64,000 nt of DNA. Source: Nocardia neocaledoniensis. Its GTDB lineage: Bacteria; Actinomycetota; Actinomycetes; Mycobacteriales; Mycobacteriaceae. Every line of letters starts with the position of its first letter. Positions within the stretch are counted from its first letter, which is position 1. The stretch lies in the NCBI RefSeq assembly GCF_029868625.1, contig NZ_JARWOJ010000225.1:1-64000 (forward strand), written 5' to 3'. Shown in pieces: positions 9,384 through 62,766 of the stretch. The notes beneath the pieces are model-generated. The model was not told the origin of the DNA and did not search any database. It was given only the letters and a program-made list of their open reading frames with translations. The position numbers were made by a program, and so were the translations under genes.

Positions 9384-9519
9384 GAGTATTGCTGGCGTGA
9401 CCTTCGGACTAGCTGACGATGGCAGTTCCGCCCGCCATTCCGACCATCCCTGCGGCATCGTCCTGCGTAGCCATGTGGAGATCGAGAGCTGCTGGCAACC
9501 TCTCTGTCGCCGGTGGTGA

Positions 9520-29378: not shown

Positions 29379-29411
29379 AACTCCTCGCTTACTACACAGC
29401 AGCCTGGCCAC

Positions 29412-30857: not shown

Positions 30858-31215
30858 TCAGCGCAAAGTTGCCGCCGCCGCCGGGATGAACACCATCGCC
30901 CGGTCGAGGTCACCCGGTTGGGAACGGTAGGTGAGTTCGCTGACGACGCTGGCTACTGTCGCGGCCAACATGCGCGGGGCGAGATCGTCAGCGCTCCAGC
31001 CCTGTTCTTCGGCGAGTAGCTGCGCGCCTTCGCGGATCACTTTGGTGAGCCGGGCCCGACAAAAGGCCTTCGAGCTGCGGATTGGCTTGCAGCATGCGGT
31101 CGTACAGGTCGTCGAAGCTGGTGCGCGCGTCCTGCTTGCGACGCAACCACTCCTCGACGGTGTCGAGGATTCCCTGACCTGCGGGCCGTTCGTGGAGTGC
31201 CGCGGTCAGTCCCTC
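30858..31215 (-). pseudogene. TetR-family regulator, C-terminal remnant with a frameshift
   Basis: On the minus strand the bases from about 31215 read LHERPAGQGILDTVEEWLRR and FDDLYDRMLQANPQLEG, then in another frame ARLTKVIREGAQLLAEEQGW and ATVASVVSELTYR, ending at 30858. Together this is the ligand-binding half of a MftR-like TetR protein, with one frameshift near 31060. The DNA-binding N-terminus is absent; in its place comes the recombinase sequence, so the two were fused by a rearrangement at about 31215. Confidence 0.55.
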
Positions 31216-33848: not shown

Positions 33849-33851
33849 GGC

Positions 33852-34295
33852 TCAGACCTTGCCCGTGGCGTCGGAGATCCACGACAGGTCGCTGGTGGCA
33901 AAGCTCTCGTACCAGCCTGCGGGGGCATTGTTGGTCAGTTCGCTCATGTCCCAGTAGTCCTTCCACAGAGTGATCTTGCCGTCGTGGACCTTGTGGACCG
34001 AGACGAAGTGCAGCACTGCGATTTCGCCGCTGGCCCAAGTCCAGGTCTCGGAATGTTCGAAAAGCACGTCAGTTCCGTTGGTCAGGAGCAGGCCGGGGTG
34101 GTTGGCGTAGGCGGCGAGAGGGTCCACCGAGATGCTGAGCTTTTTTATGATGTCGTCGGGTCCGATCGCGGCGATCGTGGGCCCTGTCGGGATGTCGTAG
34201 AAGACGCAGTCGTCGGCGTAGTAGGTGCGGGCCTTTTCCCAGTCCCGGTCGGAGACCGCCTGCCACATGCCTTGCACGATTTCGGTTGGTGACAC
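33852..34295 (-). CDS. NTF2-like protein, limonene-epoxide-hydrolase type (147 aa)
   Basis: A small cone-shaped alpha+beta protein of the SnoaL/limonene-1,2-epoxide hydrolase group: VQGMWQAVSDRDWEKARTYYADDCVFYDIP at the N-terminus, then IAVLHFVSVHKVHDGKITLWKDYWDM, with Asp/Arg-like polar residues lining the cavity in the known enzymes. The GTG at 34295 with AAGGGA seven bases upstream gives a normal length; a much longer open frame runs back through the monooxygenase gene and is a shadow. Such proteins hydrolyse epoxides or isomerise small lipids. In this operon, next to a Baeyer-Villiger monooxygenase, it could act on an oxygenated terpene or steroid-like substrate. Confidence 0.7.
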   Translation of the reverse strand: MSPTEIVQGMWQAVSDRDWEKARTYYADDCVFYDIPTGPTIAAIGPDDIIKKLSISVDPLAAYANHPGLLLTNGTDVLFEHSETWTWASGEIAVLHFVSVHKVHDGKITLWKDYWDMSELTNNAPAGWYESFATSDLSWISDATGKV

Positions 34296-34335
34296 TTCAA
34301 TTCCCTTCTCGGACAACAAATGAAGATGTTCTCGA

Positions 34336-44713: not shown

Positions 44714-45208
44714 CTACCGGTCGCCAACTCTTGCCTTCGAGCTATCAGACTCGGACATGCTCAGGTCACTACGCCTTCGAGCAACCTTACGGATCGTCAA
44801 CACAGCGTCCAGCCCGGGCTCGTCGACGTCGCGCTGGCCATGCTCGGCAGCCTCCGCACCCGAAGCGAACAACGGCACCGGCGACTCGTATCCCTGCGTC
44901 TGTTCGAACGTGTGCGGGCTGATACGCTTCTGAATCAGCGCAAGGCGCAAAGCCAACAACCCACGTCCTCCATGGCAACCAACCCAACCGGCACACATCC
45001 GCCGCATGCTGGAGTCCGCGTCGCTCTGGTGACACTGGAACAAGTGAGGCGCCTGCACACCCAAGTCGCCGTCGTAGGCACGTAGCTTCTCGTACTCGGT
45101 GAAGTCCCACACGCCACTGGGGACATCACGCCGGTACGGACAACTCACACACGGCCGCGGCGCGGGAGGGCCCATCTCGTCCTGGCCGAACGCGTCGGTG
45201 GGTTCCAC
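44714..45208 (-). CDS. DUF6283 family protein (164 aa)
   Basis: A small Cys/His-rich actinobacterial protein: RPCVSCPYRRDVPSGVWDF, EYEKLRAYDGDLG, FQCHQSD, MCAGWVGCHGGRGLLALRLA. The Cys and His set (CxxC, CH, C...C-H) suggests a metal or zinc-binding fold. Function unknown. GTG at 45208 is preceded by GGGGAG at four bases; a longer start at 45241 would add eleven residues. The last third, about 60 residues, is polar and may be poorly folded. It lies on the leader side of the CRISPR array, and a 5' fragment of a near-identical gene occurs at 29196-29378 in the same orientation. Confidence 0.7.
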   Translation of the reverse strand: MEPTDAFGQDEMGPPAPRPCVSCPYRRDVPSGVWDFTEYEKLRAYDGDLGVQAPHLFQCHQSDADSSMRRMCAGWVGCHGGRGLLALRLALIQKRISPHTFEQTQGYESPVPLFASGAEAAEHGQRDVDEPGLDAVLTIRKVARRRSDLSMSESDSSKARVGDR

Positions 45209-45720
45209 GACTCTCCCCTCACTACACAGCGGCTCGGCCACAGACTATCGGTGATCTGTACCAGCCGCCTTCCGGTCGCCCCGAACCAGTGAGGTGAGCT
45301 CGTCGAGGCGGATCTTCGGGGCCCTCGGTGACGGCGAGATGGCTGGTCAATCCGCCCGTCACCCACCGGATCGCGCTGCCCCTTCAGCGGTCCTCGACGA
45401 CTTTGATGCTTGTGAGAACGGCCCGCGCTCGCACCGAGGGCCGTAGTCACGTTAAGATGTCGTGTTCGACCCATTCGCCCATGTGAGGATCAAACTGGCA
45501 CCACCACGGTCAACGCCGCGTGCCGATCTCCGGCCAGTGTTCACGACGTCGGCTGTCGGCACCCTGGGTGCCTCGAGCCTTCGGCGAGGTGTGGCGCGGA
45601 TTCACGACTTAGCAGCGCTGCTAAGCCCGCCACGGTTCTTGCTGATTCACCTCCTCTGGCCTGCACAAACCACTGGTTGAATGGATTCGACGGGTGCTCA
45701 CCGCAGACGCGGCGCCACCG
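45209..45720. other. No gene seen
   Basis: About 510 bases upstream of the DUF6283 gene. Nothing recognised; frames are short and without motifs. Confidence 0.35.
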
Positions 45721-47055: not shown

Positions 47056-47760
47056 TCACACGGACACTTGCTCATCGATGAGGTTCAAGACCCCAGCTCG
47101 GTGCTCAGCGATCAATGCTCGGACGCCGTTCGCGGTTGTGCGCAATTGCTGGGGCGTGGAGATCTCCGAACCGAGCAGCGACGTGACAGCGGCCGCGAAC
47201 ACACGAGTCAGGTCCTGCACCGGTGGCCGAGGTGTTGCTTTGTAGGCCACGACGAACCCGGTAGTCAGCGCTTGTAATGCGATAACCTGATCATCGAGCG
47301 GCCAATCGGTGCGCGCCAGTCCACTGTCACGCCATATTGGAAGTATCGCGCGGATGACTGCGTCGGGACCCAAAATTTCCAACAGCCTCGCCGAGCGAGG
47401 ATCCGCCGCCAGAATACCGAGCAGATCGTTGTCCGAGTGTTGCAGCGCAGCGATGAAGGGGTGCTCGGCGGCGATGCAGAGCATGCTCGGGCAGAGGCGC
47501 GACGGTCGTGCGATCTCAGGATCGACGGAGACCAGGGCCGTCACTTCATCGGCGAGCGCCAAGAAGTCGCGGCCGATCAGGCCAAGGAGCAGATCTTCCT
47601 TGGTTCTCCAGTACAGATAGACGGTGCCCTTGCCCACGTGCGCGCGAGCGGCGACGTCAGCGACGGTGACACCCTTACTGCCGCGAGCGAGGAGCAGCTC
47701 GCCCGCGGCAGCTAGGATGCGGGCGGCCCTGCTAGAGCTCTCTTCTGGTAAATCAGGCAT
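47056..47760 (-). CDS. TetR-family regulator (234 aa)
   Basis: N-terminal TetR domain: RILAAAGELLLARGSKGVTVADVAARAHVGKGTVYLYWRTKEDLL with recognition helix GKGTVYLYW. The helical C-terminal domain is about 170 residues. The start overlaps the stop of the FAD monooxygenase gene by eight bases, so monooxygenase and regulator form one transcript. An inverted repeat at 49031-49057 upstream of the monooxygenase is the probable operator, which would give autorepression of both. Confidence 0.85.
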   Translation of the reverse strand: MPDLPEESSSRAARILAAAGELLLARGSKGVTVADVAARAHVGKGTVYLYWRTKEDLLLGLIGRDFLALADEVTALVSVDPEIARPSRLCPSMLCIAAEHPFIAALQHSDNDLLGILAADPRSARLLEILGPDAVIRAILPIWRDSGLARTDWPLDDQVIALQALTTGFVVAYKATPRPPVQDLTRVFAAAVTSLLGSEISTPQQLRTTANGVRALIAEHRAGVLNLIDEQVSV

Positions 47761-49018
47761 CGGACGTCGCTTTCTCGGGGATCGGGGTAGGCGGCTCGCC
47801 CAGAATCTTCCCGACGATATCGGCTCCTTTGTACTCGAAGAGTTCCTCCACCCGCATGATTTTGTCGGCTACGTGGCGCCCGAGTCGGGTTTTGCTGATC
47901 GTCGGCAGCAGTCGGCGAAGCAGGATCTGCAGCCGATTGTCCACGATGAAGATCCTCCGGTCTGCGGCGATATTCTCTTGGTAGTGGGTGATATACGGGC
48001 GCAAGCCCTGCTCCCATTCGTTTAGCGCCGTGGCGATGTCACCCCTGTGACGTTCGAGCATGCCGCCGAGCAGGTCGGCACCGGCCAGCCCTGCAGACAC
48101 GCCCATGCCAGCGTAGAGACTCACACACCACGCAGCATCACCCAACAGAACGACCCGGCCCTTGTGCCACGTCGCCATGCAAACCTGCTCGGCGGAGTCG
48201 AACAGCACGGTGTTGGTTCTGTCCATCTCCTCGAAGGCAGCAGTCAGAACGCTGCCGGGCGCCTGTGGGCCGAATGCGGCCCGCACGCTCTCGACGGGCG
48301 GGCGATCGAACTCCGCGTCCACGTCATCGGTTCGGTAGCTCAGCAGCATCGTCGGATGGTGATCGGCGAAAGCGAACAGCAACATCGACCGGTGTGGTTC
48401 CAGAAGACTCGCGCCTTGATCCTCAGCTACCCCTGGAACCCCGTCGCGGCATTCGAATGCGGCGACCATGTACCCCAGCCGCTTGAGAAATCGCTCGTGT
48501 GGACCGAACACCAGCGATCGCACGGTGGAACGCACTCCATCGGCCCCGACGACGAGGTCGAACCGCTCGGTGGTCGACGTCCCCGATGTCGCGTTGTACA
48601 AGGTTACTGTGACCCCGTCGGCGTCCTGATAGATCTCGGTCGGAACCGTCGCATACCGGATCTCCACATCGGTTTGCAACACCTCGAATGCCGCTGTTTC
48701 CACGTCGCCGCGGAGCATGAGCCAAGGTTTGGTCGGCAGATCCGAATACGACCTTCCCGGGCGGATCCGACCGGCCCGGTCGAGACTTACGGCGTCGGCC
48801 GACGAGGCACGGTCGTGGAGGTGCTCGATCATCCCAAGCCGACGCGCAGCCGCCTGACCCGCACCGAACAACGCCACGAAATACCCACCTGAACGGCGTT
48901 CCGGGGATCGCTCCACCAGCACGACGCTCCATCCCGCCTTCCGCAACCTGCCCGCGGTCGCGAGACCGCTCACGCCCATTCCGACAACCAATACCCTGCC
49001 CTCTTGGATTTGAATCAT
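47753..49018 (-). CDS. FAD-dependent monooxygenase, PHBH/UbiH type (421 aa)
   Basis: A group A flavoprotein monooxygenase using FAD and NAD(P)H. The N-terminal Rossmann motif is VLVVGMGVSGLATAGRLRKAG, the DG motif is VVGADGVRSTVR, and the GD motif is VVLLGDAAWCVSLYAGMGVSAGLAGA (GDAA...G.G). The start at the ATG at 49018 places the Rossmann motif eight residues in; the longer frame reaches over the operator. Such enzymes hydroxylate aromatics, polyketides or inactivate antibiotics such as rifampicin or tetracyclines. With a TetR gene co-transcribed behind it, detoxification of a small molecule is a plausible role, unproven. Confidence 0.85.
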   Translation of the reverse strand: MIQIQEGRVLVVGMGVSGLATAGRLRKAGWSVVLVERSPERRSGGYFVALFGAGQAAARRLGMIEHLHDRASSADAVSLDRAGRIRPGRSYSDLPTKPWLMLRGDVETAAFEVLQTDVEIRYATVPTEIYQDADGVTVTLYNATSGTSTTERFDLVVGADGVRSTVRSLVFGPHERFLKRLGYMVAAFECRDGVPGVAEDQGASLLEPHRSMLLFAFADHHPTMLLSYRTDDVDAEFDRPPVESVRAAFGPQAPGSVLTAAFEEMDRTNTVLFDSAEQVCMATWHKGRVVLLGDAAWCVSLYAGMGVSAGLAGADLLGGMLERHRGDIATALNEWEQGLRPYITHYQENIAADRRIFIVDNRLQILLRRLLPTISKTRLGRHVADKIMRVEELFEYKGADIVGKILGEPPTPIPEKATSDA

Positions 49019-49030
49019 GCCTAAAATCCT

Positions 49031-49057
49031 ACTGACCACAACGGTCAATCGGTCAGT
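49031..49057. promoter_or_regulatory. Candidate operator of the monooxygenase-TetR operon
   Basis: ACTGACC at 49031-49037 mirrored by GGTCAGT at 49051-49057, with a further GGTCA inside. It lies 13 bases upstream of the monooxygenase start, a common place for TetR operators. Confidence 0.5.
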
Positions 49058-49500
49058 TTGTGACCCGAGACACTCACGATTGAGGCGGTGGGCACACACC
49101 ACGGAGGGTGCCTAGACACCGCACGGATTCGAGCCGTACCCGCGGCGGCGATGGAGTCCCGCAGCAATCTTCTCGAAGATCGCCCAACGGCTCCGATGCT
49201 GATCGGGCAGCTTGAAGCAAACTTCCGGACACCAGCGCCGTTCACGCTCCGCGGCTGTGCGATACTTACGCGGATTGGTAGCTCGCGATCATCCAAGCCG
49301 CGATCAGATCCCGTAGCAGGCTGGTCCACCATGGAGAGCCGACTCGCCCCAAACCGCACACTCCGACAACAGCTTCGGTGGGCGCCAGAGAGAAAGCCAT
49401 GCCGAATCACCCGCGGACGTCCGCTTGCGATCACCGCCTCAACCCCCAGCGACGCCGAGCCCGCCAGTTGCGTGCTACATCACTTGTCAGCCGCGGCGCC
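49058..49500. other. No gene seen
   Basis: About 440 bases between the monooxygenase promoter and a TetR remnant. Nothing recognised. Confidence 0.35.
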
Positions 49501-49870
49501 CTAGACAAACTCCCTGGCACACTCGAGCTGCCGCTCCGACAGCGCAGACCCGGGCAGAGGTGAGCGGACAAATCGCGCGTCACGGAGTCCGTCCAAAATG
49601 ACGGCGAGGTACCGCACCACGCGCCTGGGGCAACCCGGTAGCTGAACTCCGCCATCGAGCCGACCATGTGATTGAGGGCGGCGAAGTCGCCGGGTGCAGC
49701 GTCAACCCTGAGCTCGCCCGCCGCCTGCGCTCACGCGAAGAGCTCCACAATCGCGGAGTCCATCCGCGAACGCTGGCAGGCGAGCCGTGCGTCGTCGCCT
49801 TCCCGACTGATCAGCACCTCGAGCAGGCCCCGATTGACAGCCTACCGTTACGAGCGAGGGGCGTCTGCGC
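49501..49870 (-). pseudogene. TetR-family regulator, C-terminal remnant
   Basis: Minus-strand pieces RGLLEVLISREGDDARLACQ, SAIVELFAWAQAAGELRVDA, DFAALNHMVGSMAEFSYRV and, after a frameshift near 49620, RYLAVILDGLRDARFVRSPL to LECAREFV and a stop at 49501. This is the ligand-binding domain of a TetR protein. No helix-turn-helix is found upstream, and at least one shift is present. Confidence 0.5.
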
Positions 49871-49940
49871 ACTGGCCAGGGTCAGCATCTGCGCGGGGCG
49901 GCCAGGAACGCCAAAAAGGGGCCGGGCCGTGCGGGTTCAA

Positions 49941-50497
49941 TCACTACGCCGGCACCTGTCGTCCGCGGAGAACTTGGGCGCTTCGTACGGGGACGGCGCA
50001 AACAGCACCGGGAACAGCAATTCTGCGATGCGGTCGCCAACTTCGAGGAACGCAAGGGAGACTGGCCGATGGAGTCGGCGATGTCCGCCCAGCCGACGTA
50101 GGCCAGATCGTTACGGGCCGATGCAGCGCGGCAATGAATTTCGCGCCGATGATCTTGGCGATGCGATGAGCCTCGCCGAGGATGTAGGTGCGCGAGGCCG
50201 CCCCGAAGGCCAGTTTGCCAACTTGCCCCCACAGCGATTCGGACATCACGAGCACCAGATCGGCGAGATCGACCATCTCGGGCTTGAGTTTGCGGGCCTC
50301 GAATCCGGCGGTGTCAGCACCGAGGCCGACGATGACGTCCGAGGCAAGAGTTTCCGGCGGAATGCCGACCAGCGCACGCGTTCCCGCGCTCTCGGCTGTC
50401 AACCCGGGCCGGGGTTTGTCCGCAGCGAACGCTCGGTGAGCCGTTCGGCGATCACCGAGCGGCAGAGGTTGGAGTTGCAGACAAACGGCACGTGCAT
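49941..50497 (-). pseudogene. Low-molecular-weight protein tyrosine phosphatase, frameshifted
   Basis: From the ATG at 50497 the frame reads HVPFVCNSNLCRSVIAERL, the C-x4-C-R-S loop of low-molecular-weight phosphatases. Near 50400 it shifts to TAESAGTRALVG and RKLKPEMVDLADLVLVMSES, then RTYILGEAHRIAKIIGAKFI. After another shift it continues as LAYVGWADIADSIGQSP, then AFLEVGDRIAELLFPVLFAP, ending at 49941. The pieces line up as one protein of about 185 residues with at least three shifts. The DP motif with the general acid is not evident. Confidence 0.65.
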
Positions 50498-50953
50498 TCC
50501 GACACCATATCCAGCACTAAGGGCGAGAATCACAACAACTGGATAACAGTACACCTCTCGTAAAACCTCTGTACATGAAACACAATGCGCGAGAACATAG
50601 CTCGGCAGAACGAAATTTGCGCAGCGTTTCCAAACGCGTTCCGGCATGCGTATCGAGTATGCGCTCCGCAGGGAATCGACGTCCGATCGGGATACGACTT
50701 CGAACTGTGGAAGGAATCGAATACGTCAAACGTACGGAGCATGGGCGGACAGCGAGCTCTACCGAAGTCGCCGACACGGGAGCGTTCCAGTCAGGGCAGG
50801 GGACAACTGGCTCACGGGCACGAGGGAGCAGTCGACAAGGAGTGTCGGACGCGCGTGCCGCCTCCGGAAAACCGAAGCCTCAGTCCGAGAAGTCGCACGG
50901 GCCTCGGTCGACCCTTCGCACAAGGCGTTCGGTCGGTCTGGTGCGGACCGCAA
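50498..50953. other. No gene seen
   Basis: About 450 bases, AT-richer than average near 50530-50720. Long overlapping plus-strand frames run from here into the antisense of the CoA-transferase and are shadows. Confidence 0.35.
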
Positions 50954-52144
50954 TCACCCAGAGCACTCCTGCCGTGTCCCTGCCAGCCAACCCCGGATCT
51001 CGGTTCCGTGTTCGTTCAACTCAGGCGGCGCCAATTCATAGCGGGCTGGCGACGCCGAGAACCGAATCGGATGCCGTGTGGACGGCACAGCCCGCTCACC
51101 CTCGCCGACCGACACAATCGGGTCTAGACCAAACTTCTCGGCCATCGCGAACCCAGCTGCGATCGTGTTTATGGGGCCGCTGGGCACGCCTGCCTCGACG
51201 AGCAACTCGAACCACTCGTGAGCGCTACGTTCGGCTAGCCGCTCGACAAGAATCACCCGAAGCTCGTCACGGTTTGCGGTGCGGTCGACATTTCGTGCGA
51301 ACCTAGGGCTGTCTGCGATGGCCGGAATGCCCAGCACATTACACAGCTTGCGAAACTGGCGGTCGTTGGCCGCAGCGATAATGAGATCGGAGTCGGCTGT
51401 CGGTAGAGGTTCATATGGGAAGACACTCGGGTGGGCGTTTCCCATCCGTGACGGGACGACACCCCCTGCAACATAAGCGGAGCTGTGGTTCACCAATCCG
51501 GACAGAGCGGAAGACAGGAGGTTGACTTCAACATGTTGCCCTGTGCCGTAGGTGTCTCGATGCCTGAGCGCGGCAAGGACACCGATTGTGGCATGGTTGC
51601 CCGCCATCACGTCAAACACCGACATTCCGCTGCGATAAGCCTTGTCACCCGGCTCACCGGTCAGACTCATCAAGCCCGAAATCGCCTGCACCACTAGATC
51701 ATAGCCCGGCACGTGCGCCCCAGCGTCGGTGCCGAATCCGCTGATCGAGGCGTACACGATGCCAGGATTGTCGGCGCTCACCGTCTCGAAATCGAGCCCG
51801 AATCGGGCCATGCCGCCCGGCTTGAAGTTCTCGATCAGGACGTCGGCACGGCTGACCAGCTCTTTCGCAGCAGCGCGGTCATCCTCGTCCCGCAAGTCCA
51901 AGGCGATCGACCGTTTGCCGCGATTTACCCCGAGGTAGTACGTCGCAGTATCACCGCGGACAGGAGGCTTCCACGCGCGCGTCTCGTCTCCTTCGGGGCT
52001 TTCGACCTTGATGACGTCAGCACCCAGATCGGCCAGCATCATGGACGCATAGGGGCCAGCGAGTGCTCTGGAGAAGTCTGCTACCAAAACGCCGGAAAGC
52101 AGTCCGGGATTCGCCGAGTTCGTTTTTCCGGTAGTCGCGTTCAC
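50954..52144 (-). CDS. CaiB/BaiF family CoA-transferase (396 aa)
   Basis: A class III CoA-transferase that moves CoA between carboxylic acids. The N-terminus is typical: VLVADFSRALAGPYASMMLADLGADVIKVE, then NRGKRSIALDLRD, RADVLIENFKPG, GIVYASISGFG and PGYDLVVQA, where the Asp is the catalytic residue that forms the acyl anhydride. GTG start with AGGAGG at eight bases. Last gene of the minus-strand cluster P450, AONS-like, HsaA-like, this enzyme, with 194 bases before it, which may contain its own promoter. It could activate the acid substrate or product of the pathway as a CoA ester. Confidence 0.85.
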   Translation of the reverse strand: MNATTGKTNSANPGLLSGVLVADFSRALAGPYASMMLADLGADVIKVESPEGDETRAWKPPVRGDTATYYLGVNRGKRSIALDLRDEDDRAAAKELVSRADVLIENFKPGGMARFGLDFETVSADNPGIVYASISGFGTDAGAHVPGYDLVVQAISGLMSLTGEPGDKAYRSGMSVFDVMAGNHATIGVLAALRHRDTYGTGQHVEVNLLSSALSGLVNHSSAYVAGGVVPSRMGNAHPSVFPYEPLPTADSDLIIAAANDRQFRKLCNVLGIPAIADSPRFARNVDRTANRDELRVILVERLAERSAHEWFELLVEAGVPSGPINTIAAGFAMAEKFGLDPIVSVGEGERAVPSTRHPIRFSASPARYELAPPELNEHGTEIRGWLAGTRQECSG

Positions 52145-52338
52145 GATCCGGCCTCCTTACCTGCTGAGGGTACAGTTGCCCATACACAAGATGTTCCTCG
52201 CCTGGCGCCGAGGCAATTCGCAGCCCTGTGCATCTGCAGTGCGCGGGATCGCCCCCGTCACACTCCTACCCGTGTTTGCCGACATCTGACTGAGCCTCCC
52301 ACCCACCAGTGGCCGGTAGCCATCCGGCAGCGACACAA

Positions 52339-53526
52339 CTATTGCACTATCGACACCGCAGGGTCGATTCGCAGGAGGGCGCGTGTGTAGTCCTCGATAC
52401 TGACGAGCTTGTTGAAATGGGCATGGTGACTACCGGTTTCGAAATCGCGCCAATATCGCTGCAACGGGTTGCTAGCGGCGAACCCGCTGGTCCCACCCAG
52501 ATCTAGCAGCAACAAGATCGCTTCGCGGGACCGATCTATCGCGGCCGTCATATGCCGACGAGCACGGGTGCGCTCTGCCCGTGTCATGGCGTCCGCGGTG
52601 AAGGCGGCGTCGATCAGGTCAGCCGAACACAGCAGATGCCCGGTGGCTGCATCGAGCAAGTGATCGGCCTCTGCCAACCAGTGGCGTGTGAGGGGGGATT
52701 CCACAGCTGAGCTATAGATCGTGTCGGTGAGCGGCTTGCCTTTGGCGAGCATCGTTTGCACGGTATCGAGAGCGCCATACGCGGCTCCCACCAGCGCTGC
52801 AATCGTACGATGAGCCAGACCGATGAACTTCTCAGGCTTGGGAAGGTTGAGCATACCCTCGACAGCATCGACCGGGTGCCGGATTACGCGGTGCTCGGGG
52901 ACGAATTCGTCGTCGAATCTGACCGTGTGACTGCCAGTCCCGAGCATGCCTGCTACGTCCCAGGTGTGCTCGATGTCGGCCGCAGCAAGTGGCGCGATCA
53001 TCGATACCACCTCGCCACTGTCTACTCCGTCGACAACGACGGGAACAGTAACCAGGAGCATCCAGTCACCGATCTCGCAACCGGAGACTGTGGGGAACCG
53101 TCCCGTCACTCGGTAGCCGGCATCGACGACGGTCGCCGTCGCATTGTGATTTCCGCCGTTGTTGCATACGAAGATGTCCGGTGTCGTGGACAACATGTCT
53201 TCGACACCGTCCAGTGGCAAGAGAGGGAGAAGTGCATCGACCACGCCGGTGATACCGACCAGCCAGCCTGCGGACGCACATCCACGACCGACTTCGAGGA
53301 TGACCCTAGCCTGTTCGCGTATTGAGAGATCCTCACCACCCAGTGACCTGGGCACGCTCATTCGGAACAGGCCCGCTGTGCGTAGCGCATCCACAACTTC
53401 GGGGGTCAGCCGTCGATCACGTTCCGCAGCTGCCGCGTTGTCCCTCAACAGTGGGACAAGTAGTCGCGCCCGGTCGACCAGCGCCTGCGACTCAGCGGAT
53501 GACCGTTCATCTATTGGACTAGACAT
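52339..53526 (-). CDS. Acyl-CoA-dehydrogenase-fold flavin monooxygenase, HsaA-like (395 aa)
   Basis: A two-component flavin-dependent monooxygenase in the acyl-CoA dehydrogenase fold, like HsaA, DszC or HpaB-type group D enzymes. N-terminal part: VDALRTAGLFRMSVPRSLGGEDLS; middle: ASAGWLVGITG and VTGRFPTVSGCEIGDWMLL; C-terminal: LLLLDLGGTSGFAASNPLQRYWRDFETGSHHAHFN, where the conserved DLGG, RxWRD and the double His are characteristic of this group. It lacks the catalytic Glu of true dehydrogenases as far as I can tell. It needs a flavin reductase partner, and none is in the window. It lies 87 bases behind the AONS-like gene. Confidence 0.8.
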   Translation of the reverse strand: MSSPIDERSSAESQALVDRARLLVPLLRDNAAAAERDRRLTPEVVDALRTAGLFRMSVPRSLGGEDLSIREQARVILEVGRGCASAGWLVGITGVVDALLPLLPLDGVEDMLSTTPDIFVCNNGGNHNATATVVDAGYRVTGRFPTVSGCEIGDWMLLVTVPVVVDGVDSGEVVSMIAPLAAADIEHTWDVAGMLGTGSHTVRFDDEFVPEHRVIRHPVDAVEGMLNLPKPEKFIGLAHRTIAALVGAAYGALDTVQTMLAKGKPLTDTIYSSAVESPLTRHWLAEADHLLDAATGHLLCSADLIDAAFTADAMTRAERTRARRHMTAAIDRSREAILLLLDLGGTSGFAASNPLQRYWRDFETGSHHAHFNKLVSIEDYTRALLRIDPAVSIVQ

Positions 53527-53613
53527 CGTTTCCTATCGATGACGTGTTTCGGTTGCGTCCGCGCTGGCTCCACTGAGATGGACCCAGCATCCTCTCATGC
53601 GTGACAGGTACCG

Positions 53614-54837
53614 TCAGCCCGCTGCTGGACGCGCCACCGAAAGGGCGTTTGCCATCGCAGAGACGAGGTTCTCGATGTCGGCTTCGCTGTGATGGCAGGT
53701 CAAAGTCACCCGCAGACCTGCGCGGTCCATGGGCACAGCGGGGAACGCCGCGAGACCGACGAGATAACCACCGTCACGAAGGTCACGGATGGCTCGGTAG
53801 GTACGATCGACCGATCCCACGGTGATGCAGCGAATCGGAGCGACTGAATCGCTGGTGAGCGGCAGATCACGTTCTGCTGCTCGTCTATTGAACAGTTCGA
53901 TCAAGCTGCACAGCCGGTCCTGCAGCGGTTGCACGGCTTCAGCCAAATGTAGTCGAGCCGACGCAACCACCGCGCCGAGCATGGGTGGCTGGACCTGCCC
54001 AGAGAACAGCATCGGCCCGCCGAGGGTGAAAACGCGCTCCAACAGTTCATTGTTGGGGAAGGTGAGCGCTCCACCGACAGCTCCGAACGCCTTGCCCAGC
54101 GACATGGCGACGACGCTGCGCGACAACGTCGCCGAGTCCAGCGCTTCGAGCGCGTAACCTCTTCCTCGCTTTCCCGACCACGAAACGGAGTGCGCGTCGT
54201 CGACGTACAGCCACAATTTTGGGAAGCGTTTCATCAAATGATTGAGGGCTTCAGCCGGAGCGAAATCCGCCTCCATACTGTATAGGCCATCCAGAGCGTA
54301 CCAGACTCGCTCGTGGCTCGATGAGAGTTCCTCGACGCGAGCTCCCAATTCAGTCAGGTCACTGTGCGGGATCGAGGACACGTTGGGGTTGTAGTCCCGA
54401 ACCAACGAGGACGCCACGTAGATACTGTTGTGCGCCTGGCGGTCAAGGATGAGTGCGTCTTGTTCAGCGACCAGGGACGGAAGTGCGGAGATGTGTCCCA
54501 ACGTTGTCGTCGGCGCAATGAGCGTCGGGCGTCCGAAGAGATGCGACAACAGGTCTTCAGCTTCAGCGTAGAGTGGCGACGAAAGATATGACCGCGAGGC
54601 CGAGAAGAGGGCTCCGTAGCGGTCTGCAGCATCTTTAACGCCTTGTTTGACCTCCGGGTGCATCTCGAGGCCGAGATAGCTGCATGATTCAAAGTTCAGT
54701 AGCGATTTTCCCTCGACCGTCACCGTCCGACCGTCAAGACTGTCGTCCTGTGCGGTGTTTCGAAAAATTCCGAGACGAACCGCGATACCGATTACAGACT
54801 CTACGGCCGCAGTACGCTGGTGGTGCGTTGTAACCAT
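53614..54837 (-). CDS. Alpha-oxoamine synthase, AONS/KBL-like PLP enzyme (407 aa)
   Basis: A PLP enzyme of the alpha-oxoamine synthase family, which condenses an amino acid with an acyl thioester and loses CO2 (BioF, Kbl, HemA, SPT). Motifs: NFESCSYLGLEMHPEV near the N-terminus, GRPTLIAPTTTLGHISAL, LYVDDAHSVSWSGKRGRG (Asp and His that hold the cofactor) and VVAMSLGKAFGAVGG, with Lys forming the Schiff base. The normal family has GTGxxG-type segments and S-x-S-K; here the sequence SLGKAFG differs in detail, so substrate is open. ATG at 54837 has GGAG seven bases upstream. It is not in a biotin operon; between a P450 and a flavin monooxygenase it suits a natural-product or lipid-amine pathway. 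Confidence 0.8.
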   Translation of the reverse strand: MVTTHHQRTAAVESVIGIAVRLGIFRNTAQDDSLDGRTVTVEGKSLLNFESCSYLGLEMHPEVKQGVKDAADRYGALFSASRSYLSSPLYAEAEDLLSHLFGRPTLIAPTTTLGHISALPSLVAEQDALILDRQAHNSIYVASSLVRDYNPNVSSIPHSDLTELGARVEELSSSHERVWYALDGLYSMEADFAPAEALNHLMKRFPKLWLYVDDAHSVSWSGKRGRGYALEALDSATLSRSVVAMSLGKAFGAVGGALTFPNNELLERVFTLGGPMLFSGQVQPPMLGAVVASARLHLAEAVQPLQDRLCSLIELFNRRAAERDLPLTSDSVAPIRCITVGSVDRTYRAIRDLRDGGYLVGLAAFPAVPMDRAGLRVTLTCHHSEADIENLVSAMANALSVARPAAG

Positions 54838-54884
54838 CTCTACACTCCGAGAACTAGCATGCTGAGTTGAAGACCACACGAGCG

Positions 54885-54918
54885 TCGAAGGGCAACCCAG
54901 CGATGGGTTGCCCTTCGA
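54885..54918. terminator. Perfect hairpin between P450 and AONS-like genes
   Basis: A 15-bp perfect stem TCGAAGGGCAACCCA with loop GCGA. It lies 56 bases after the P450 stop and 47 before the AONS-like start. Followed by T-rich sequence on the plus strand (TCATTCTTCGTT), less so on the minus strand. It may weaken or end the P450 transcript or serve as a processing site. Confidence 0.55.
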
Positions 54919-54974
54919 TCATTCTTCGTTGATGGATCCGATCGTACGGGTCGGTCGGAGATTGGGGCAGGATT

Positions 54975-56243
54975 TCAGTGCGCCACAGGACATCCCGTCG
55001 TCGCGTGCATCTTCTTGACAGCACCGGCGAAGTTTCCGACAAGCAATTCAGGCTCGGTCAAGACGAGGTCGGGCACGCGATGGAACAGTTGGTCGAACAT
55101 ATTGCGCAGCATCGACTGCGCAAGGAAGCTGCCGATGCAGAAGTGCGGCCCGCCGCCGCCGAATGCCACATGCCCCATCGGTTTCCGGCTGATGTCGAAC
55201 TTCCAGGGGTCGGCGAATACGGTTTCATCCCGGTTGCCTGATGCGTAGAACATCACGACCCAGTCCCCCTTGCGTATCTGACGCCCACCGAGCTCGGTGT
55301 CCTCAGTTGCCGTTCGCCGGAAGGTCATGATCGGAGACACCCAGCGCAGCACTTCTTCGACGGCGTTGTTGATTCGGCCGTCGAAGTCTTCGAGCAGGTA
55401 GGCGAGCTGGTCGGGGTGTTCTAGAAATGCCTTGGTTCCCAAGCTGATCGACGTTCGTGTCGTATCATTCCCAGCGAATGACAGCAGCACGAACATGGTT
55501 GCCAGCTCCTCGTCGGAGAGCCGTTTGCCATCGACTTCAGCCTTGACAAGGTTCGACCACACATCATCACGTGGACAGGCTCGCGTGAGCTCGGCGAATT
55601 CGAATCCGATGGCAAGATTGCCGATCGTCCCGTCCATCAGCACCTCAGCGGGCGGCCTTCCGGCCGCGACGTCTGGGTCATTCCAGGCTGCCATCTCGTC
55701 TGCGTTGTGCGCCGCCTGGTCTCTGTACTGCTCGGGCAGCCCCACCGCGTCGTAGAAGGTGTTCATGGGCATGTGCTTGGATACATTCTGCACGAAATCG
55801 CCTTCACCGATATCGAGCAGTCGATCGACGATGCCTGCGGCGCGGGCTCGGATGCCCTCCTCTAGCCTTTGCACCTGCTTCGGCGTGAACGCGCCGCTGA
55901 CCAGCTTGCGCATGGTCATGTGCTTTTCGCCGTCCATGCCAAGAAAACCTTCTGCGGCCTCAAGGATTTCCTTGGGTATTTCCTCCATTTGAACCCCCTC
56001 GCCAGAGCAGAAGAGGTCCGGGCGCCTGCTGACGTACTTGATCAGCTCATGCGATGTCACCGCCCAGTAGCCCTCGTTCTCAGGCTCTGAGATACCGCCT
56101 TCAGCGGGCGGCTGCCAACTCACCGGCCGATTTTTGCGCAACTCGGCCAGACGCACGTCCCGCTCCCGCGGGCTCATGGCCCAGAAACTCAGACTGGACA
56201 CCTCGACCGGGTCGTACTCGCGATCTGCAGGCAGTGTGCTCAT
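54975..56243 (-). CDS. Cytochrome P450 (422 aa)
   Basis: A soluble bacterial P450 of the CYP125/CYP142-like general type. The I-helix is VLLSFAGNDTTRTSISLG (AGxDTT with Asn for the usual x), the K-helix ExxR is in EEVLRWVSP, and the haem loop is FGGGGPHFCIGSFLAQSMLR with the Cys ligand. ATG at 56243 has AGGAGAA at the right distance; the open frame reaches 56351 without a better start. It needs a ferredoxin and reductase; the nearest ferredoxin gene is at 62554. First gene of the minus-strand cluster, its promoter region holds the 18-base palindrome, across from the TetR gene at 56957. Confidence 0.9.
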   Translation of the reverse strand: MSTLPADREYDPVEVSSLSFWAMSPRERDVRLAELRKNRPVSWQPPAEGGISEPENEGYWAVTSHELIKYVSRRPDLFCSGEGVQMEEIPKEILEAAEGFLGMDGEKHMTMRKLVSGAFTPKQVQRLEEGIRARAAGIVDRLLDIGEGDFVQNVSKHMPMNTFYDAVGLPEQYRDQAAHNADEMAAWNDPDVAAGRPPAEVLMDGTIGNLAIGFEFAELTRACPRDDVWSNLVKAEVDGKRLSDEELATMFVLLSFAGNDTTRTSISLGTKAFLEHPDQLAYLLEDFDGRINNAVEEVLRWVSPIMTFRRTATEDTELGGRQIRKGDWVVMFYASGNRDETVFADPWKFDISRKPMGHVAFGGGGPHFCIGSFLAQSMLRNMFDQLFHRVPDLVLTEPELLVGNFAGAVKKMHATTGCPVAH

Positions 56244-56956
56244 CGATTGGTTCTCCTGTTGTTGAATCAGAGCCGTAACGTGAAGGACAGCCCCATCTCG
56301 CCCTTCAGGATGTTTGGGCGCGGCAGGCACCCCCGCCTTGCCAGGAAACATCTCGCGGGCGAGATTCCTCTATCGCTCTGAGCTTCCGGCGACGTCCGAG
56401 CGACGACGATCTGGGCTGTGCGGGTTCCCCTGAGCGACCCCGCCTCGCGCCTCTTTGAAGCCTCTGGCATTGCTCGGCGGCATGCCCGTCGCCGGGCGGA
56501 GCGGTCGACCCTGGGCCCGCATACGAACACTCATCGAGATCTCCGATGCCGATGGGGTCGCCAGGCCGGGGACCGCGGCAACCCAATTACGATTCAAATA
56601 CCATGTAGAATTTCTACCGAAGGCGTCATCTCCATCCGGCAATGAGGACCGGAGATGTGACCTGCGACATATCCTGCATGAAGTCTAGCATAAGTCGACT
56701 TATGCGGCAAGGGTGCTGGTAAGAACCATCTCTGGCCAGCCGAGCAACCCGAGTAGGCGATGTCCTCGACCCGTCGATCAGACGGGCTGACGACGAGGGC
56801 GGCTCGCACCCGCCGCCCCGCTTAGACTCTATATTCAATTTCACGCCTCCCGGAGACGAAGGCGGCACGATGCGCGCCCGTCCTTCGTGCCCGCAACAGC
56901 CGACCGACCCGAGCGGGCCAGCGCGTACGCATCTGTCCAGTTACCAAGAGGAACGT
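56244..56956. other. Divergent promoter region of P450 cluster and TetR gene
   Basis: More than 700 bases with frames on both strands that show no family resemblance. It contains the 18-base palindrome at 56688-56705. AT-rich stretches around 56580-56610 and 56820-56840 (TCTATATTCAATTT) may be promoters. Confidence 0.4.
56688..56705. promoter_or_regulatory. Perfect 18-bp palindrome, candidate TetR operator
   Basis: GCATAAGTCGACTTATGC, a perfect inverted repeat in the divergent region between the P450 cluster and the TetR gene. Length and symmetry are ideal for a TetR dimer. It is some 250 bases from the regulator start and 445 from the P450 start, so transcripts would have long leaders or further promoters exist. 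Confidence 0.6.
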
Positions 56957-57655
56957 ATGACCACCAATCGGACTACCGACCATCCATACCACCCGGCCAG
57001 CGTGTCCGCTCTCGCAGCGCAGAGACACGCCGACAGGGAGTGGTACCGGCGCCGAATCATTCTCGCCGCAGATGAAGCGTTCACCACGAACGGCTATCAC
57101 GCGACATTCATGGATGAGATCGGTCGGCGTGTGGGAGTCAGCAAACCGGTACTGTACAACTACTTTACTGGCAAGTTGGAGCTCTATTTGGCCGTACTGC
57201 AGACGCACCTCGACAATCTGGTAGCCGGCGTCCGGAGTGCTCTTGGCGCTGCGGAAGAAAATGCCATGCGGGTCAGCAATGCCGTCTCCGCTTATTTCGA
57301 CTTCGTCGACAAAGACACTGCCGGTTACAGACTGGTTTTCGATTCCGACCTCATCAGCGAGCCATCGGTCCAGTGGAGAACACGACAGGCAACCGAGGCC
57401 TGCATCGACGCAGTGTGCGCTGAGCTTCTTCGCGGATCCAGCCTGTCACCGAAACACACCCGCGCCATGGCGGTCGGGCTTGTCGGTGCAAGCCACCATG
57501 CCGCCCGGTATTGGATCGAGGCCGGACGCCCGGTTCCCAAAGCCGATGCAGTGGCAGCCACTGCATCGCTATGTTGGGGAGGGCTGTCCGGGATCGATCA
57601 CCGTGCCCCTACGATGCCGCTGGATGCCGCAAATGCCCAGGATGAAAGCAGCTGA
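56957..57655 (+). CDS. TetR-family regulator (232 aa)
   Basis: DNA-binding domain: IILAADEAFTTNGYHATFMDEIGRRVGVSKPVLYNYFTGKLELYLAVL, a standard TetR helix-turn-helix with recognition helix SKPVLYNYF, as in FadR/KstR-type lipid regulators. ATG at 56957 has AGAGGAAC eight bases upstream; an earlier ATG at 56870 would add 29 unstructured residues. The C-terminal domain is helical (VSAYFDFVDKDTAGYRLVF, GLVGASHHAARYWIEAG). Divergent from the P450 cluster with the palindrome between, so it probably controls that cluster and itself. Confidence 0.87.
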   Translation: MTTNRTTDHPYHPASVSALAAQRHADREWYRRRIILAADEAFTTNGYHATFMDEIGRRVGVSKPVLYNYFTGKLELYLAVLQTHLDNLVAGVRSALGAAEENAMRVSNAVSAYFDFVDKDTAGYRLVFDSDLISEPSVQWRTRQATEACIDAVCAELLRGSSLSPKHTRAMAVGLVGASHHAARYWIEAGRPVPKADAVAATASLCWGGLSGIDHRAPTMPLDAANAQDESS

Positions 57656-59405: not shown

Positions 59406-59842
59406 GGATGGTACGACACATGTGGGGCGGTCGCGGTGGACCGGGGACTCGCCGAAAGCTGGTCGCGGACCTGCCCGACTGTGACGTTGATTTCATAGGC
59501 GACCAAGCCGAGATCGGCGTCCATGCCTGCCAGCAGCGCCACGCACGCGCCCTGGCCGGCTTCGGTCACCATCAAGTAGCCCTCGTCGAGCTCGACGACC
59601 GTCTGGCGAAGTTGCCCCTTGTCGAACCGGTATCCGACCCCGCGAGCCAAACTGTGTAGTGCCGAGGATACTGCAGCGAGGTGTTCGGCATCCTCGCGGC
59701 TGACCCCGTCCGAACCCGCCAACGCCAATCCGTCCGCAGAGAGCACGACCGCCCGCTCGGCTCCCGGAACCTTGCCGACAAGACTATTGAGCAGCCAGTC
59801 GAGTGCACCGACAGTTCGGTCCACTGCAACATTGTCGTTCAT
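59402..59842 (-). CDS. cvnB: Conservon roadblock/LC7 protein CvnB (146 aa)
   Basis: Roadblock/LC7 domain: LDWLLNSLVGKVPGAERAVVLSADGLALAGSDGVSREDAEHLAA and VVELDEGYLMVTEAGQGACVALLAG. Such proteins act as a GTPase-activating or scaffold partner of CvnD, like MglB for MglA. Start overlaps the stop of cvnA and its stop overlaps the start of cvnC. Length normal for the family. Confidence 0.88.
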   Translation of the reverse strand: MNDNVAVDRTVGALDWLLNSLVGKVPGAERAVVLSADGLALAGSDGVSREDAEHLAAVSSALHSLARGVGYRFDKGQLRQTVVELDEGYLMVTEAGQGACVALLAGMDADLGLVAYEINVTVGQVRDQLSASPRSTATAPHVSYHP

Positions 59843-62238
59843 ATCCGACCATCCATTTCCGTGGTGTGTCCAGCCGATGAGGTACGCGCTTGCTGCGTTC
59901 CGGCTTGAAAGGAGCTCATAGCGGCGCGTGCTTGCTCGGCCGATCGCGCAGAATCGATGGCCACAGGCCGTTGCGAGGGAGCCGAGTTGTCTATTTGAAG
60001 TTGCGGGGCGAGGTGACTCTGGCGCTGCCTCCGTGGCAAGGGGGATCGCCCTGGCGACACTTGTGCCGGGAAATCCATTGGTACCGAGGACAGTCGCGTC
60101 TGTTTCGGCACGGAAGCTCGCCCGGCTGCTGTGCCAGCTTCTGGAGTCTGCGATTCGTATCCGATGGCGGCCCCACGCGACCCGCTAGTGCTTTCGTCGA
60201 GACGGTGCCGAACTGGCCTACGTACTACCCCGTTCGAGGCCTCCAGCGCATCGTCTAGCGACGCCGGCAGCGCGACAGGCCGTGTCGCTTCGTCAATCTC
60301 CGGCGAGTTGAGCAGCTTGGCGGGGATCAGCACGATTGCTTTGACGCCCCCGTAGGCCGATTCCTGCAGGCTCACCGAGATACCGTGTCGCTGTGCAAGA
60401 CGGCCGACAACGAACAGCCCCAGATGCCGTCGGCCAGCAACGGCCAGCTCCTGGAACTCGGGAGGGGTCTGTAGCAAGTCGTTGAGTCGATCGCGGTCGT
60501 CAGGCCTTATGCCGACGCCCTGATCCTCGACTTCTACGGCAACCCCGCGACCGACGCGATTGCCGCGCACAGAGATAGGCGCGTCCGGCGGCGAGAACGT
60601 CGCTGCGTTATCGATCAACTCGGCGAGCAGGTGGATCAAGTCCGCTACCGAACCACCGAGCATCTGAATGTCCGGCAAGCGGACACCGACAACCCTAGCG
60701 AAGCCTTCTGTCTCCGACGCGGCGCTTCGAACGATATCCTCCAATGACACCGACGTGCGCCATCTGCGTCCTGGCTGCTTCCCACCAAGAATCAACAAGT
60801 TTTCGGCGTTGCGCCGAGCACGCGTTGTCAGATGATCTAGTTTGAACAGCAACTCCAGGTGGTCAGGATCATCCTGCTTCGACTCCGCGATGTCGAGGAT
60901 GTCGAGTTGTCGGCGAACCACCGTCTGGGTACGGAAGGCTATGTCGAGGAAGACCTTGTTGAAGCCGTCCCGCGTCCGGGCTTCGGCGGCGGCTGCAGTC
61001 ATCGCCGCCCGTTGCGCCCTACTGAACGCATCCGCTACTTGACCGAGTTCGTCAGAACCTTCATCCACAACCGCGGTCTCAGCATCGACATCGACTTCCT
61101 CGCCGTCGTGGAGGCGTCGAATCAACGACGGCAGTCCCTCATTCGCCAATTCCAGACATCGCGAACGTAGCCTGCGCAGCCTTTGAACCAGACGGTTCGC
61201 CCCCACGAACGCAAGCAGGAACGATCCCACGGCAATGATCAGCACGGAGAATCCGGCGATCAGTGCTTGCTTGAAGGAGGTATCAGCCGCGGTTCCGGCA
61301 CCGTTGGTTGCATGCACGAAGTGCAGGCGGAAGATATCGAACAATTCGGAGCTGACGGTTCGCTCTGCGGCCAACCATTCGTCCTGTGGAATCGAAAGCT
61401 GACCGAACTCGGCAATATGGTCTTCCTCGGCAGAGATCGTGCGCCACGCCGGACTCGCGGTTAGAGCACGATAGCGTTCTGTCTCGCTCTCGGTGAGATG
61501 GTCATCGAGCTGGCGCAGCTGTTCCCGGTAGGTTCCGACCAATTGCGTGATCGTCCGCCGTTCACTTTGTCGAAGGCCTTCGCGGGTGGCATCAGCCGCT
61601 ACCAGCCCGATCGTGCGCGAATGAAGATCGGCGATCCTCAGCAATGCTGCTGTGATCGTTAGGTCGGTGACAGTCGTTGTCTGGGGCGCATTCACGGCGC
61701 TAACCTCGATGGCGTCAGCGATTGCTTCGACGATCCCGCTGTACAACCCGTCGGCATCGGCCGTCAGGGAACGAGCATCGACAGCTTCCCTCACCGTCGG
61801 AATCTTCGGAAGCAGGCTCGACAATTGCGTATTTAGCCGCGCGATTGCCTCAGAATCTAGGCGCTGAGCGCCACTAGCAAGCTGCCCCATTGTTTGAACG
61901 GCAGCGTCAGTCGCAGCCCTGTCGACCGCCAAATCGAGGGATGCCCGTGAGTCGCCTCCGAGCACCAGCAAGGTCGTCGTCCGTTCATCTTGCATCGTCG
62001 TTACGATATGAGCGAGAGGCTCGATGGATGACTGCCGATAGGCAAAAAGCTCGCGCTCCGTATTCGCGTCACTTATGAGGATCGCAACGGCTGCGGCGCC
62101 CGTCAACACCAACGCCGCACTAGGAATAAGAGCTATCGCAAGTACCCTGGCTCGGATGCTCGAACCAGAACGCATGCTAAGTCTTTGCATCACGACTTTC
62201 AGCCTGGAACTCGCCCCTGGCTGTGGATCTGCCGGCAA
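59839..62238 (-). CDS. cvnA: Conservon sensor histidine kinase CvnA (799 aa)
   Basis: Membrane sensor kinase. First membrane helix at about 30-52 (VLAIALIPSAALVLTGAAAVAIL), a periplasmic nitrate/nitrite-sensor-like (NIT) domain to about 330, a second helix (LIAGFSVLIIAVGSFLLAFVGA), a HAMP-like linker, and an HATPase domain with LLAELIDNAATFSPPDAP (N box) and VEDQGVGIRPDD (G1). The last 170 residues are a disordered Ser/Arg/Gln-rich tail as is usual in CvnA. No clear phospho-His is evident, also typical. First gene of the coupled cvnABCD unit; the following genes overlap by four bases each. Upstream, 315 bases away, is the ferredoxin gene. Confidence 0.85.
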   Translation of the reverse strand: MPADPQPGASSRLKVVMQRLSMRSGSSIRARVLAIALIPSAALVLTGAAAVAILISDANTERELFAYRQSSIEPLAHIVTTMQDERTTTLLVLGGDSRASLDLAVDRAATDAAVQTMGQLASGAQRLDSEAIARLNTQLSSLLPKIPTVREAVDARSLTADADGLYSGIVEAIADAIEVSAVNAPQTTTVTDLTITAALLRIADLHSRTIGLVAADATREGLRQSERRTITQLVGTYREQLRQLDDHLTESETERYRALTASPAWRTISAEEDHIAEFGQLSIPQDEWLAAERTVSSELFDIFRLHFVHATNGAGTAADTSFKQALIAGFSVLIIAVGSFLLAFVGANRLVQRLRRLRSRCLELANEGLPSLIRRLHDGEEVDVDAETAVVDEGSDELGQVADAFSRAQRAAMTAAAAEARTRDGFNKVFLDIAFRTQTVVRRQLDILDIAESKQDDPDHLELLFKLDHLTTRARRNAENLLILGGKQPGRRWRTSVSLEDIVRSAASETEGFARVVGVRLPDIQMLGGSVADLIHLLAELIDNAATFSPPDAPISVRGNRVGRGVAVEVEDQGVGIRPDDRDRLNDLLQTPPEFQELAVAGRRHLGLFVVGRLAQRHGISVSLQESAYGGVKAIVLIPAKLLNSPEIDEATRPVALPASLDDALEASNGVVRRPVRHRLDESTSGSRGAAIGYESQTPEAGTAAGRASVPKQTRLSSVPMDFPAQVSPGRSPLPRRQRQSHLAPQLQIDNSAPSQRPVAIDSARSAEQARAAMSSFQAGTQQARTSSAGHTTEMDGRI

Positions 62239-62553: not shown

Positions 62554-62766
62554 CTACGACCGGACGGCTTCGGGTTGCCGCAGAATACGTAACGCTTCGG
62601 TAGGGCAACTGAACACAGCTTCCTCGACCTCGGCCAACTCCCCGTCGGCGACATCGTCTTTACGCATGATCAGATCGCCGTTCTCATCGACCTCGAAGAA
62701 GCTCGGCGCAAGCGATTCACAGATCCCCAGGCCGGTGCACTTGGTCCGATCCAATTCGATTCTCAT
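62554..62766 (-). CDS. 3Fe-4S type ferredoxin (70 aa)
   Basis: A small electron carrier. It begins MRIELDRTKCTGLGICES and has a third Cys in VFSCPTEALRI, i.e. C-x5-C ... C-P, the pattern of three-Cys 3Fe-4S ferredoxins that serve actinobacterial P450s. The ATG at 62766 gives the correct length; a longer frame to 62820 adds 18 unrelated residues. The Cys position where four-Cys clusters have a residue is Gly/Leu. The P450 at 54975 is a possible partner on the same strand 6 kb away; there is no adjacent P450. Confidence 0.88.
   Translation of the reverse strand: MRIELDRTKCTGLGICESLAPSFFEVDENGDLIMRKDDVADGELAEVEEAVFSCPTEALRILRQPEAVRS

Follow-up and report, generated by a model that had tools for sequence, protein, structure and literature searches.

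A possible alpha-oxoamine synthase unit beside a P450 gene of a probable lipid-oxidation regulon in Nocardia neocaledoniensis

In Nocardia neocaledoniensis, a 64,000-nucleotide stretch of DNA (contig NZ_JARWOJ010000225.1, positions 1 to 64,000; hereafter the window) carries four intact open reading frames (ORFs), all on the minus strand. They code for a CYP268/124/125-like cytochrome P450 (54975..56243), an 8-amino-7-oxononanoate synthase (AONS)-like member of the alpha-oxoamine synthase (AOS) family (53614..54837), an HsaA-like flavin-dependent monooxygenase with acyl-CoA dehydrogenase fold (52339..53526), and a class III (CaiB/BaiF) CoA-transferase (50954..52144). A first-pass annotation had joined these genes into one possible biosynthetic or catabolic cluster under a neighboring TetR regulator. 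Its assignment of the four enzymes was confirmed by the ORF list, by curated-model scores, and by Pfam matches (PF00067, 76 bits; Aminotran_1_2, 75 bits; Acyl-CoA_dh_2, 76 bits; CoA_transf_3, 387 bits at a gathering cut-off of 23, which places the CaiB protein within the class III CoA-transferases). The AONS-like protein comprises 407 amino acids (aa) from its likely ATG, while the ORF extends to a GTG at 54879. The four start sites are plausibly preceded by ribosome-binding sequences. The AONS and HsaA-like genes are separated by 87 bp, and the HsaA-like and CaiB genes by 194 bp. The gap between the P450 and AONS genes contains a strong hairpin (54884..54919), a possible terminator. On the other side, a 713-bp intergenic region separates the P450 gene from a divergent gene for a FasR-like TetR regulator (56957..57655, plus strand). 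In agreement with the earlier annotation, which had noted a lack of polyketide synthase (PKS) and nonribosomal peptide synthetase genes, Pfam yielded no match to either family among the 31 window ORFs scanned (smaller ORFs lay outside the scan). Below, C-numbers denote contigs of the same genome, G-numbers comparison genomes, and L-numbers loci.

The P450/TetR intergenic region contains a palindrome, GCATAAGTCGACTTATGC, at 56688..56705, which is perfect over 18 bp and is predicted to be the probable P450 operator. With up to 3 mismatches it was single-copy within the window (0.01 expected), and the whole genome (7.24 Mb) contained four such places, compared with 0 for the reversed control. The copies outside the window were located at C194:16508-16525 (exact), C194:12373 (one mismatch), and C224:72100 (three mismatches). 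A TetR gene (TetR-a, C194:12429-13001) follows the copy at C194:12373 at a distance of ∼40 bp, and this copy also lies upstream of divergent genes for an acyl-CoA ligase, an aldehyde dehydrogenase (ALDH), and a ferredoxin-reductase-type protein; the copy at C194:16508 precedes another TetR gene, whose product has an SbtR-like C-terminal domain. Among 148 genomes of the genus, the palindrome with at most one mismatch was present in N. neocaledoniensis and in G027, G063, and G506 only (3/147 others). Since two-mismatch matches were largely due to chance (forward in 10 genomes and control in 7, of 148), we confined the palindrome evidence to copies that had at most one mismatch or lay beside a match to TetR-a or the P450. 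In G027, G063, and G506, the palindrome adjoins a TetR-a orthologue (57, 62, and 73%), the ligase (74 to 79%), and the ALDH (73 to 79%). A related P450 gene is inserted between ligase and ALDH in G027 (58% to the window P450) and G063 (55%); G506 and C194 have ligase and ALDH genes with no P450 between them. The P450 of G506, 89% identical to the window P450, lies separately behind a second palindrome copy (two mismatches). The DNA similarity between the window and G506 was limited to the P450 gene (82% over 54972-56262), and no match to the window FasR-like protein was detected around the G506 P450.

The enzyme itself resembles lipid hydroxylases. Its best 18 solved relatives were all CYP268, CYP125, or CYP124 proteins, one being titled merely P450 heme-thiolate protein, and it scored 425 bits to CYP268A2, 297 to 300 bits to CYP124, and 258 to 332 bits to CYP125 structures. 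Relatives of this P450 sit in acyl-CoA ligase/ALDH operons; in contrast, the window copy is detached from such an operon and lies between the FasR-like gene and the AONS gene. A relative on a Mycobacterium avium plasmid (55%) is found among acyl-CoA synthetase, SCP2-domain, aldehyde dehydrogenase, and ferredoxin genes, and another on a Pseudonocardia plasmid (55%) is surrounded by ferredoxin, dioxygenase, and thiolase genes. In the window, a small ferredoxin-like ORF (62584..62766, minus strand) could possibly serve as a partner; over 61 aa it matches the ferredoxin encoded in the P450 operon of the M. avium plasmid at 52%. Since the palindrome elsewhere marks ligase/ALDH operons beside a different TetR, the P450 is probably part of a lipid-oxidation regulon, though detached from the other members, and synteny points to TetR-a as its regulator. 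The first-pass proposal that the P450 belongs to a dedicated cluster under the neighboring TetR was thus not upheld. As owner of the palindrome the FasR-like protein is disfavored, given that the same palindrome adjoins a different TetR and that nothing FasR-like was found around the G506 P450. The FasR-like protein and TetR-a did not match each other by BLAST. With 248 bits the former stayed under the FasR cut-off of 330, and the genome encodes further FasR-like copies (five at 48 to 57%, one at 36%). We also considered whether the stretch from the palindrome to the P450 contains a degraded SCP2 gene; the alignment score was 42 against the C194 gene (shuffles 28.3 ± 3.9, 1/300 as good) and 29 against the G506 gene (shuffles 30.0 ± 4.5, 174/300 as good), and with such mixed results we make no claim for it. 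More generally, the case illustrates how a false gene cluster can be recognized by an operator shared with other sites: the P450 contributed to the biosynthetic look of this locus, but fits a lipid-oxidation regulon.

The AONS-like protein scored below the cut-off of every curated model with which it was compared: PRK07505 (267 bits; cut-off, 342), BioF (168; 426), Kbl (125 to 128; 460 to 493), serine palmitoyltransferase (SPT; 124 at best; 500 to 670), and CqsA (57; 428), and it gave 87 bits to 5-aminolevulinate synthase (ALAS), likewise below cut-off. The BioF cut-off alone is not decisive, because the genome's own likely BioF (C110) also misses it at 386 bits. The gene for this C110 copy adjoins a bioA match of 56%, and no biotin gene was found among the scanned neighbors of the window gene. 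The phylogenetic tree comprised 26 rows, which included BioF and Kbl references and none for SPT or CqsA; rows L009 and L011 (wrong frame in a first tree), L012, L022, and L024 were left out of it. A split with 100/100 support set the window protein apart from E. coli BioF and its own-genome C110 counterpart, from E. coli Kbl, from a PKS-fused copy, and from the C320 copy. It grouped instead with seven fusions of an AOS to a GNAT acyltransferase and one stand-alone protein (99/98; first tree, 100/99). BioF is therefore rejected on the grounds of score, tree, and the separate bioA-bioF pair, and CqsA on its score; a cognate kinase adjoining the window gene, as expected for CqsA, was also missing. 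Sequence comparison thus places the protein among the alpha-oxoamine synthases but apart from BioF and Kbl. This agrees with the first-pass view of an enzyme apart from biotin and threonine metabolism; the phylogeny suggested there was realized for BioF and Kbl, SPT and CqsA being compared by model score only. The converse case named there, a protein grouping with BioF in a genome that lacks another bioF, does not apply to this separate clade and a genome with a bioF beside bioA.

Residues H136, D213, H216, K249, and R376 of the AONS-like protein, which we take to be the pyridoxal phosphate-binding lysine and active-site residues, were invariant in all 10 rows compared, among them those of E. 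coli BioF and Kbl. Its best solved relative was Alb29, the oxoamine synthase of the albogrisin pathway (PDB 8XHA; 149 bits), as identified in PMC11906848. In contrast to PRK07505 proteins and Alb29, the window protein falls below the PRK07505 cut-off and belongs to a separate clade containing GNAT fusions. The window protein has Ser at the column with Ser in E. coli BioF and Val in Kbl; PMC11906848 reports this position to be occupied by Ser in both AONS and SPT, by Val in Kbl, by Thr in ALAS, and by Leu in Alb29. On this basis we guess at alanine or serine as the amino acid substrate.

Four other clear family members are encoded in the same genome; two further matches of 25 to 26 bits were set aside. 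Besides the likely BioF on C110, these are a true PRK07505 member (C364, 487 bits), a family member on C320, and, near an end of contig C270 (L092:178-4590), a PKS whose C-terminal domain is an oxoamine synthase. The latter is a separate candidate aminoketone gene.

Close relatives of the window synthase were rare. Within the genus, 2/97 other genomes had one at 43 to 44% identity and five more genomes had one at 32 to 34%; in broader samples, relatives were found in 3/393 other genomes of the class (E ≤ 1e-60) and, at E ≤ 1e-75, in 3/395 others of the phylum and 5/347 others of the order. All loci taken from these four samples, 13 in total, were analyzed. Neither an HsaA-like nor a CaiB gene was found near the synthase (0/13), and P450 matches were confined to one of 32% (tblastn) and one of 26% (blastp). 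Two of three AOS-GNAT fusions scanned had an Acetyltransf_6 domain; the third (L016) matched no family, yet aligned over its full length at 62 to 65%. A reading of these fusions as Spt-ceramide-synthase fusions was considered, but the literature search made for it returned no paper. A scan of named genomes with the AONS protein returned at least 44 loci, all 22 to 25% identical and, among the matches listed, all alphaproteobacterial.

In 7 of the 13 loci, the gene next to the synthase encodes a sensor histidine kinase. It is divergent in L016, L083, L084, L085, and L086, whereas in L089 and L090 it follows the synthase gene on the same strand, 57 and 32 bp downstream, respectively (synthase-kinase pairs at L089:9481-12515 and L090:3599-6632); in these two, a crude hydropathy scan shows many hydrophobic segments. 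The kinase domain was recognized by Pfam in L016, L083, L089, and L090 and by similarity in L084, L085, and L086. A HATPase-receiver-Hpt protein adjoins synthase or kinase in L083 and L085, and matches to it lie beside the synthase in L084 and L086. Under a 600-bp rule the count is 6/13; this includes L086 by virtue of its HATPase-receiver-Hpt protein, the kinase match itself lying ∼1.1 kb from the synthase. The seventh locus, L085, is adjacent by its ORF (7289-9550), the matched part of which ends 678 bp away. The loci are not all independent, because L083 and L084 share a genus. No kinase match was obtained at L017, L018, L019, L020, and L087, and at L088 the only one was ∼6 kb away. As a control, 23 loci (407 kb) contained 0 kinase-like places; the queries, which were drawn from the AOS loci, undercount, since they missed the kinase encoded in the window itself (59839-62238). 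Among rhizobial plasmid members, a response-regulator-like gene was directly upstream in 4/5 by tblastn (L101, L155, L156, and L157; not L100). On one of these plasmids, from Allorhizobium pseudoryzae (L101:4988-9303), the genes downstream encode a GNAT protein and a LuxR protein that carries an autoinducer-binding domain, and conjugation genes lie alongside.

This arrangement recalls CqsA/CqsS, JqsA/JqsS, and LqsA/LqsS, in which an oxoamine-synthase family enzyme is likewise paired with a sensor kinase; the CqsA/CqsS and JqsA/JqsS layouts are described in PMC3566124, and pairs of CqsA homologues and kinases in bacteria of the candidate phyla radiation in PMC7567580. Unlike CqsA/CqsS, the window copy has no adjoining kinase, a different operon (58.4-62.2 kb), which encodes an ATP/GTP-binding protein as well as a kinase-like one, lying ∼5 kb away. 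The earlier hint at a CqsA-like signal therefore survives in part: the protein is not CqsA by model, but 7 of its 13 analyzed relatives adjoin a kinase. The pairs may possibly represent an undescribed signal system. No report of them in Actinobacteria was found in the literature searched, to which most subscription journals do not belong, and a term search of one actinobacterial quorum-sensing review (PMC4748050) found neither "hydroxyketone" nor "CqsA"; as evidence of novelty, these negatives are weak. It is conceivable, though doubtful, that the synthases form an undescribed, mainly actinobacterial clade of signal synthases distinct from CqsA/LqsA. The frequent fusion to a GNAT acyltransferase would then suggest an N-acylated aminoketone as the signal, to be read by the adjacent kinase, and the window copy would be an escaped member in which HsaA-like and CaiB proteins replace the GNAT domain and yield a chemically different, oxidized signal or metabolite. 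If the clade does make signals, aminoketone-type cell-cell signaling via sensor kinases would be added to Actinobacteria, and the kinase-linked synthase relatives are in our view the most interesting lead, although they lie outside the window.

The HsaA-like protein scored 170 bits to the HsaA model, under the cut-off of 450. Its best solved relatives were XiaF (146 bits) and the HsaA-type entry 2rfq (138 bits), hydroxylases that act on aromatics, and S148, R360, D361, and H368, presumably catalytic-motif residues, were conserved in 5 rows. Since XiaF and the HsaA type scored highest and entry 3m9v, which we take to be an N-oxygenase, scored low (47 bits), carbon hydroxylation is our first guess and N-hydroxylation the second. 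In contrast to the two-component flavin monooxygenases HsaA/HsaB and XiaF, no reductase gene lies beside the window gene. Relatives were found in 1/149 other genomes of the genus (G090, 41%; E ≤ 1e-70) and 1/297 others of the order sample (G966, 56%; E ≤ 1e-72). The G966 relative is surrounded by PKS modules, a divergent HsaB-like flavin reductase gene, an R2-like oxidase gene, and a class III aminotransferase gene (best model PigE, 186 bits; cut-off, 850). We count this PKS setting, with its reductase and aminotransferase, in favor of the two-unit reading given below. For the CaiB protein, the best NCBIfam model was succinate-glutarate CoA-transferase (349 bits; cut-off, 750).

The GC content of the window is 62.7%, compared with 60 to 67% in the C194 pieces and 67.5 to 71.8% in ten other pieces of the genome, and third-position GC is 0.66 to 0.74 in the four genes versus 0.91 in the likely bioF. 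The low GC of the window and a recombinase gene at 31037-32080 make it probable that the region is accessory DNA. Our preferred reading, with a probability of about 0.5, is that two units lie side by side on this DNA, the P450 as a regulon member and AONS-HsaA-CaiB as an aminoketone pathway, the trio being best read as a rare three-gene unit. We infer the transcription units, the binder of the palindrome, the substrates, the order of reactions, and the role of the product as follows. The P450 would be controlled through the palindrome, probably by TetR-a encoded on C194, and would oxidize a branched or terpenoid-like lipid, the product of which could be processed by the C194-encoded aldehyde dehydrogenase, acyl-CoA ligase, and ferredoxin-reductase-type enzymes. 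In the second unit, CaiB would charge an acid with CoA, and the oxoamine synthase would form an alpha-aminoketone from the acyl-CoA and a small amino acid, alanine or serine being likeliest. With reduced flavin from elsewhere, the HsaA-like enzyme would hydroxylate this aminoketone on carbon or nitrogen, and the product could be a signal or small metabolite.

The proposed boundary between the two units is marked by the 15-bp hairpin, which gave an RNA fold z of −4.7 (0/200 shuffles equal), and termination there is a guess. Several observations weigh against the two-unit account. The hairpin has no U-run on the strand of the P450 gene, and a terminator scan of the region flagged it on the plus strand only and returned 6 sites versus 5.8 expected; with terminator-like sites at chance level, read-through into AONS is possible. 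A promoter scan found 1 site versus 2.1 expected. A search with one G966 query revealed no flavin reductase, either in the window or in the C194/C224 pieces searched. The G090 relative of the HsaA-like protein lies among ORFs that by eye resemble meta-cleavage catabolic genes, including dioxygenase-like ones. CaiB relatives at 61% (G908) and 55% (G012) have no other window gene beside them. Because AONS, HsaA-like, and CaiB genes occur together nowhere else among the loci examined, it is gene order and strand that hold the trio together.

Read-through from the P450 promoter would allow a rather unlikely alternative, in which all four genes act jointly in lipid- or steroid-like catabolism and the oxoamine synthase disposes of or cleaves an intermediate. 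The catabolic operons occupied by P450 relatives, the ligase, ALDH, and reductase genes of the P450 regulon, and the dioxygenase-like neighbors in G090 are consistent with it, as is the single strand of the four genes with no other regulator between them. However, oxoamine synthases mainly form bonds and do not cleave them, the hairpin intervenes, and the absence of HsaA-like and CaiB genes from all 13 synthase loci has its counterpart in the P450-regulon loci L151 to L154, which had no AONS or HsaA-like match and a CaiB match of just 28% in L151.

The order and strand of the genes, together with a TetR gene divergent from the P450 and a palindrome in between, could also be taken for one dedicated four-gene biosynthetic operon under that TetR, as the first-pass annotation had it. 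This is very unlikely: elsewhere the same palindrome serves operons that lie next to a different TetR, the G506 orthologue of the P450 (89%) combines it with no detected FasR-like neighbor, the hairpin lies between P450 and AONS, and the four-gene order, for which a search had been suggested, was not seen at any locus examined (AOS-relative, HsaA-relative, and P450-regulon loci). Operator and synteny set the P450 apart from the single cluster originally envisaged. That the remaining three genes are unrelated passengers on accessory DNA with no common pathway would suit the low GC, the recombinase gene, broken neighbors such as a phosphatase remnant, and the lack of a conserved partnership among the loci examined. 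We consider it improbable, since the three genes follow one another closely on a single strand, their ORFs are intact, and active sites are conserved.

Next to the CaiB gene, the phosphatase remnant is a truncated low-molecular-weight phosphatase gene (49867-50509) with 77% identical DNA on contig C138, and further on a flavin monooxygenase gene overlaps a TetR gene (47056-49102) and resembles tetracycline destructases (124 bits; cut-off, 550). Two copies of a 176-bp repeat (29249-29424 and 45079-45254), which are 84% identical, also occur in the window. On the minus strand, acetoacetate-decarboxylase-like, SnoaL/limonene-epoxide-hydrolase-like, and FMO-like monooxygenase genes lie in a row at 33201-36267 and may constitute an oxygenase pathway. 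Together with the recombinase gene, genes for a NACHT-domain protein (4233-9383), an Abi-like protein (10269-11276), and a patatin-like protein (12663-13637) give the appearance of a defense or mobile region.

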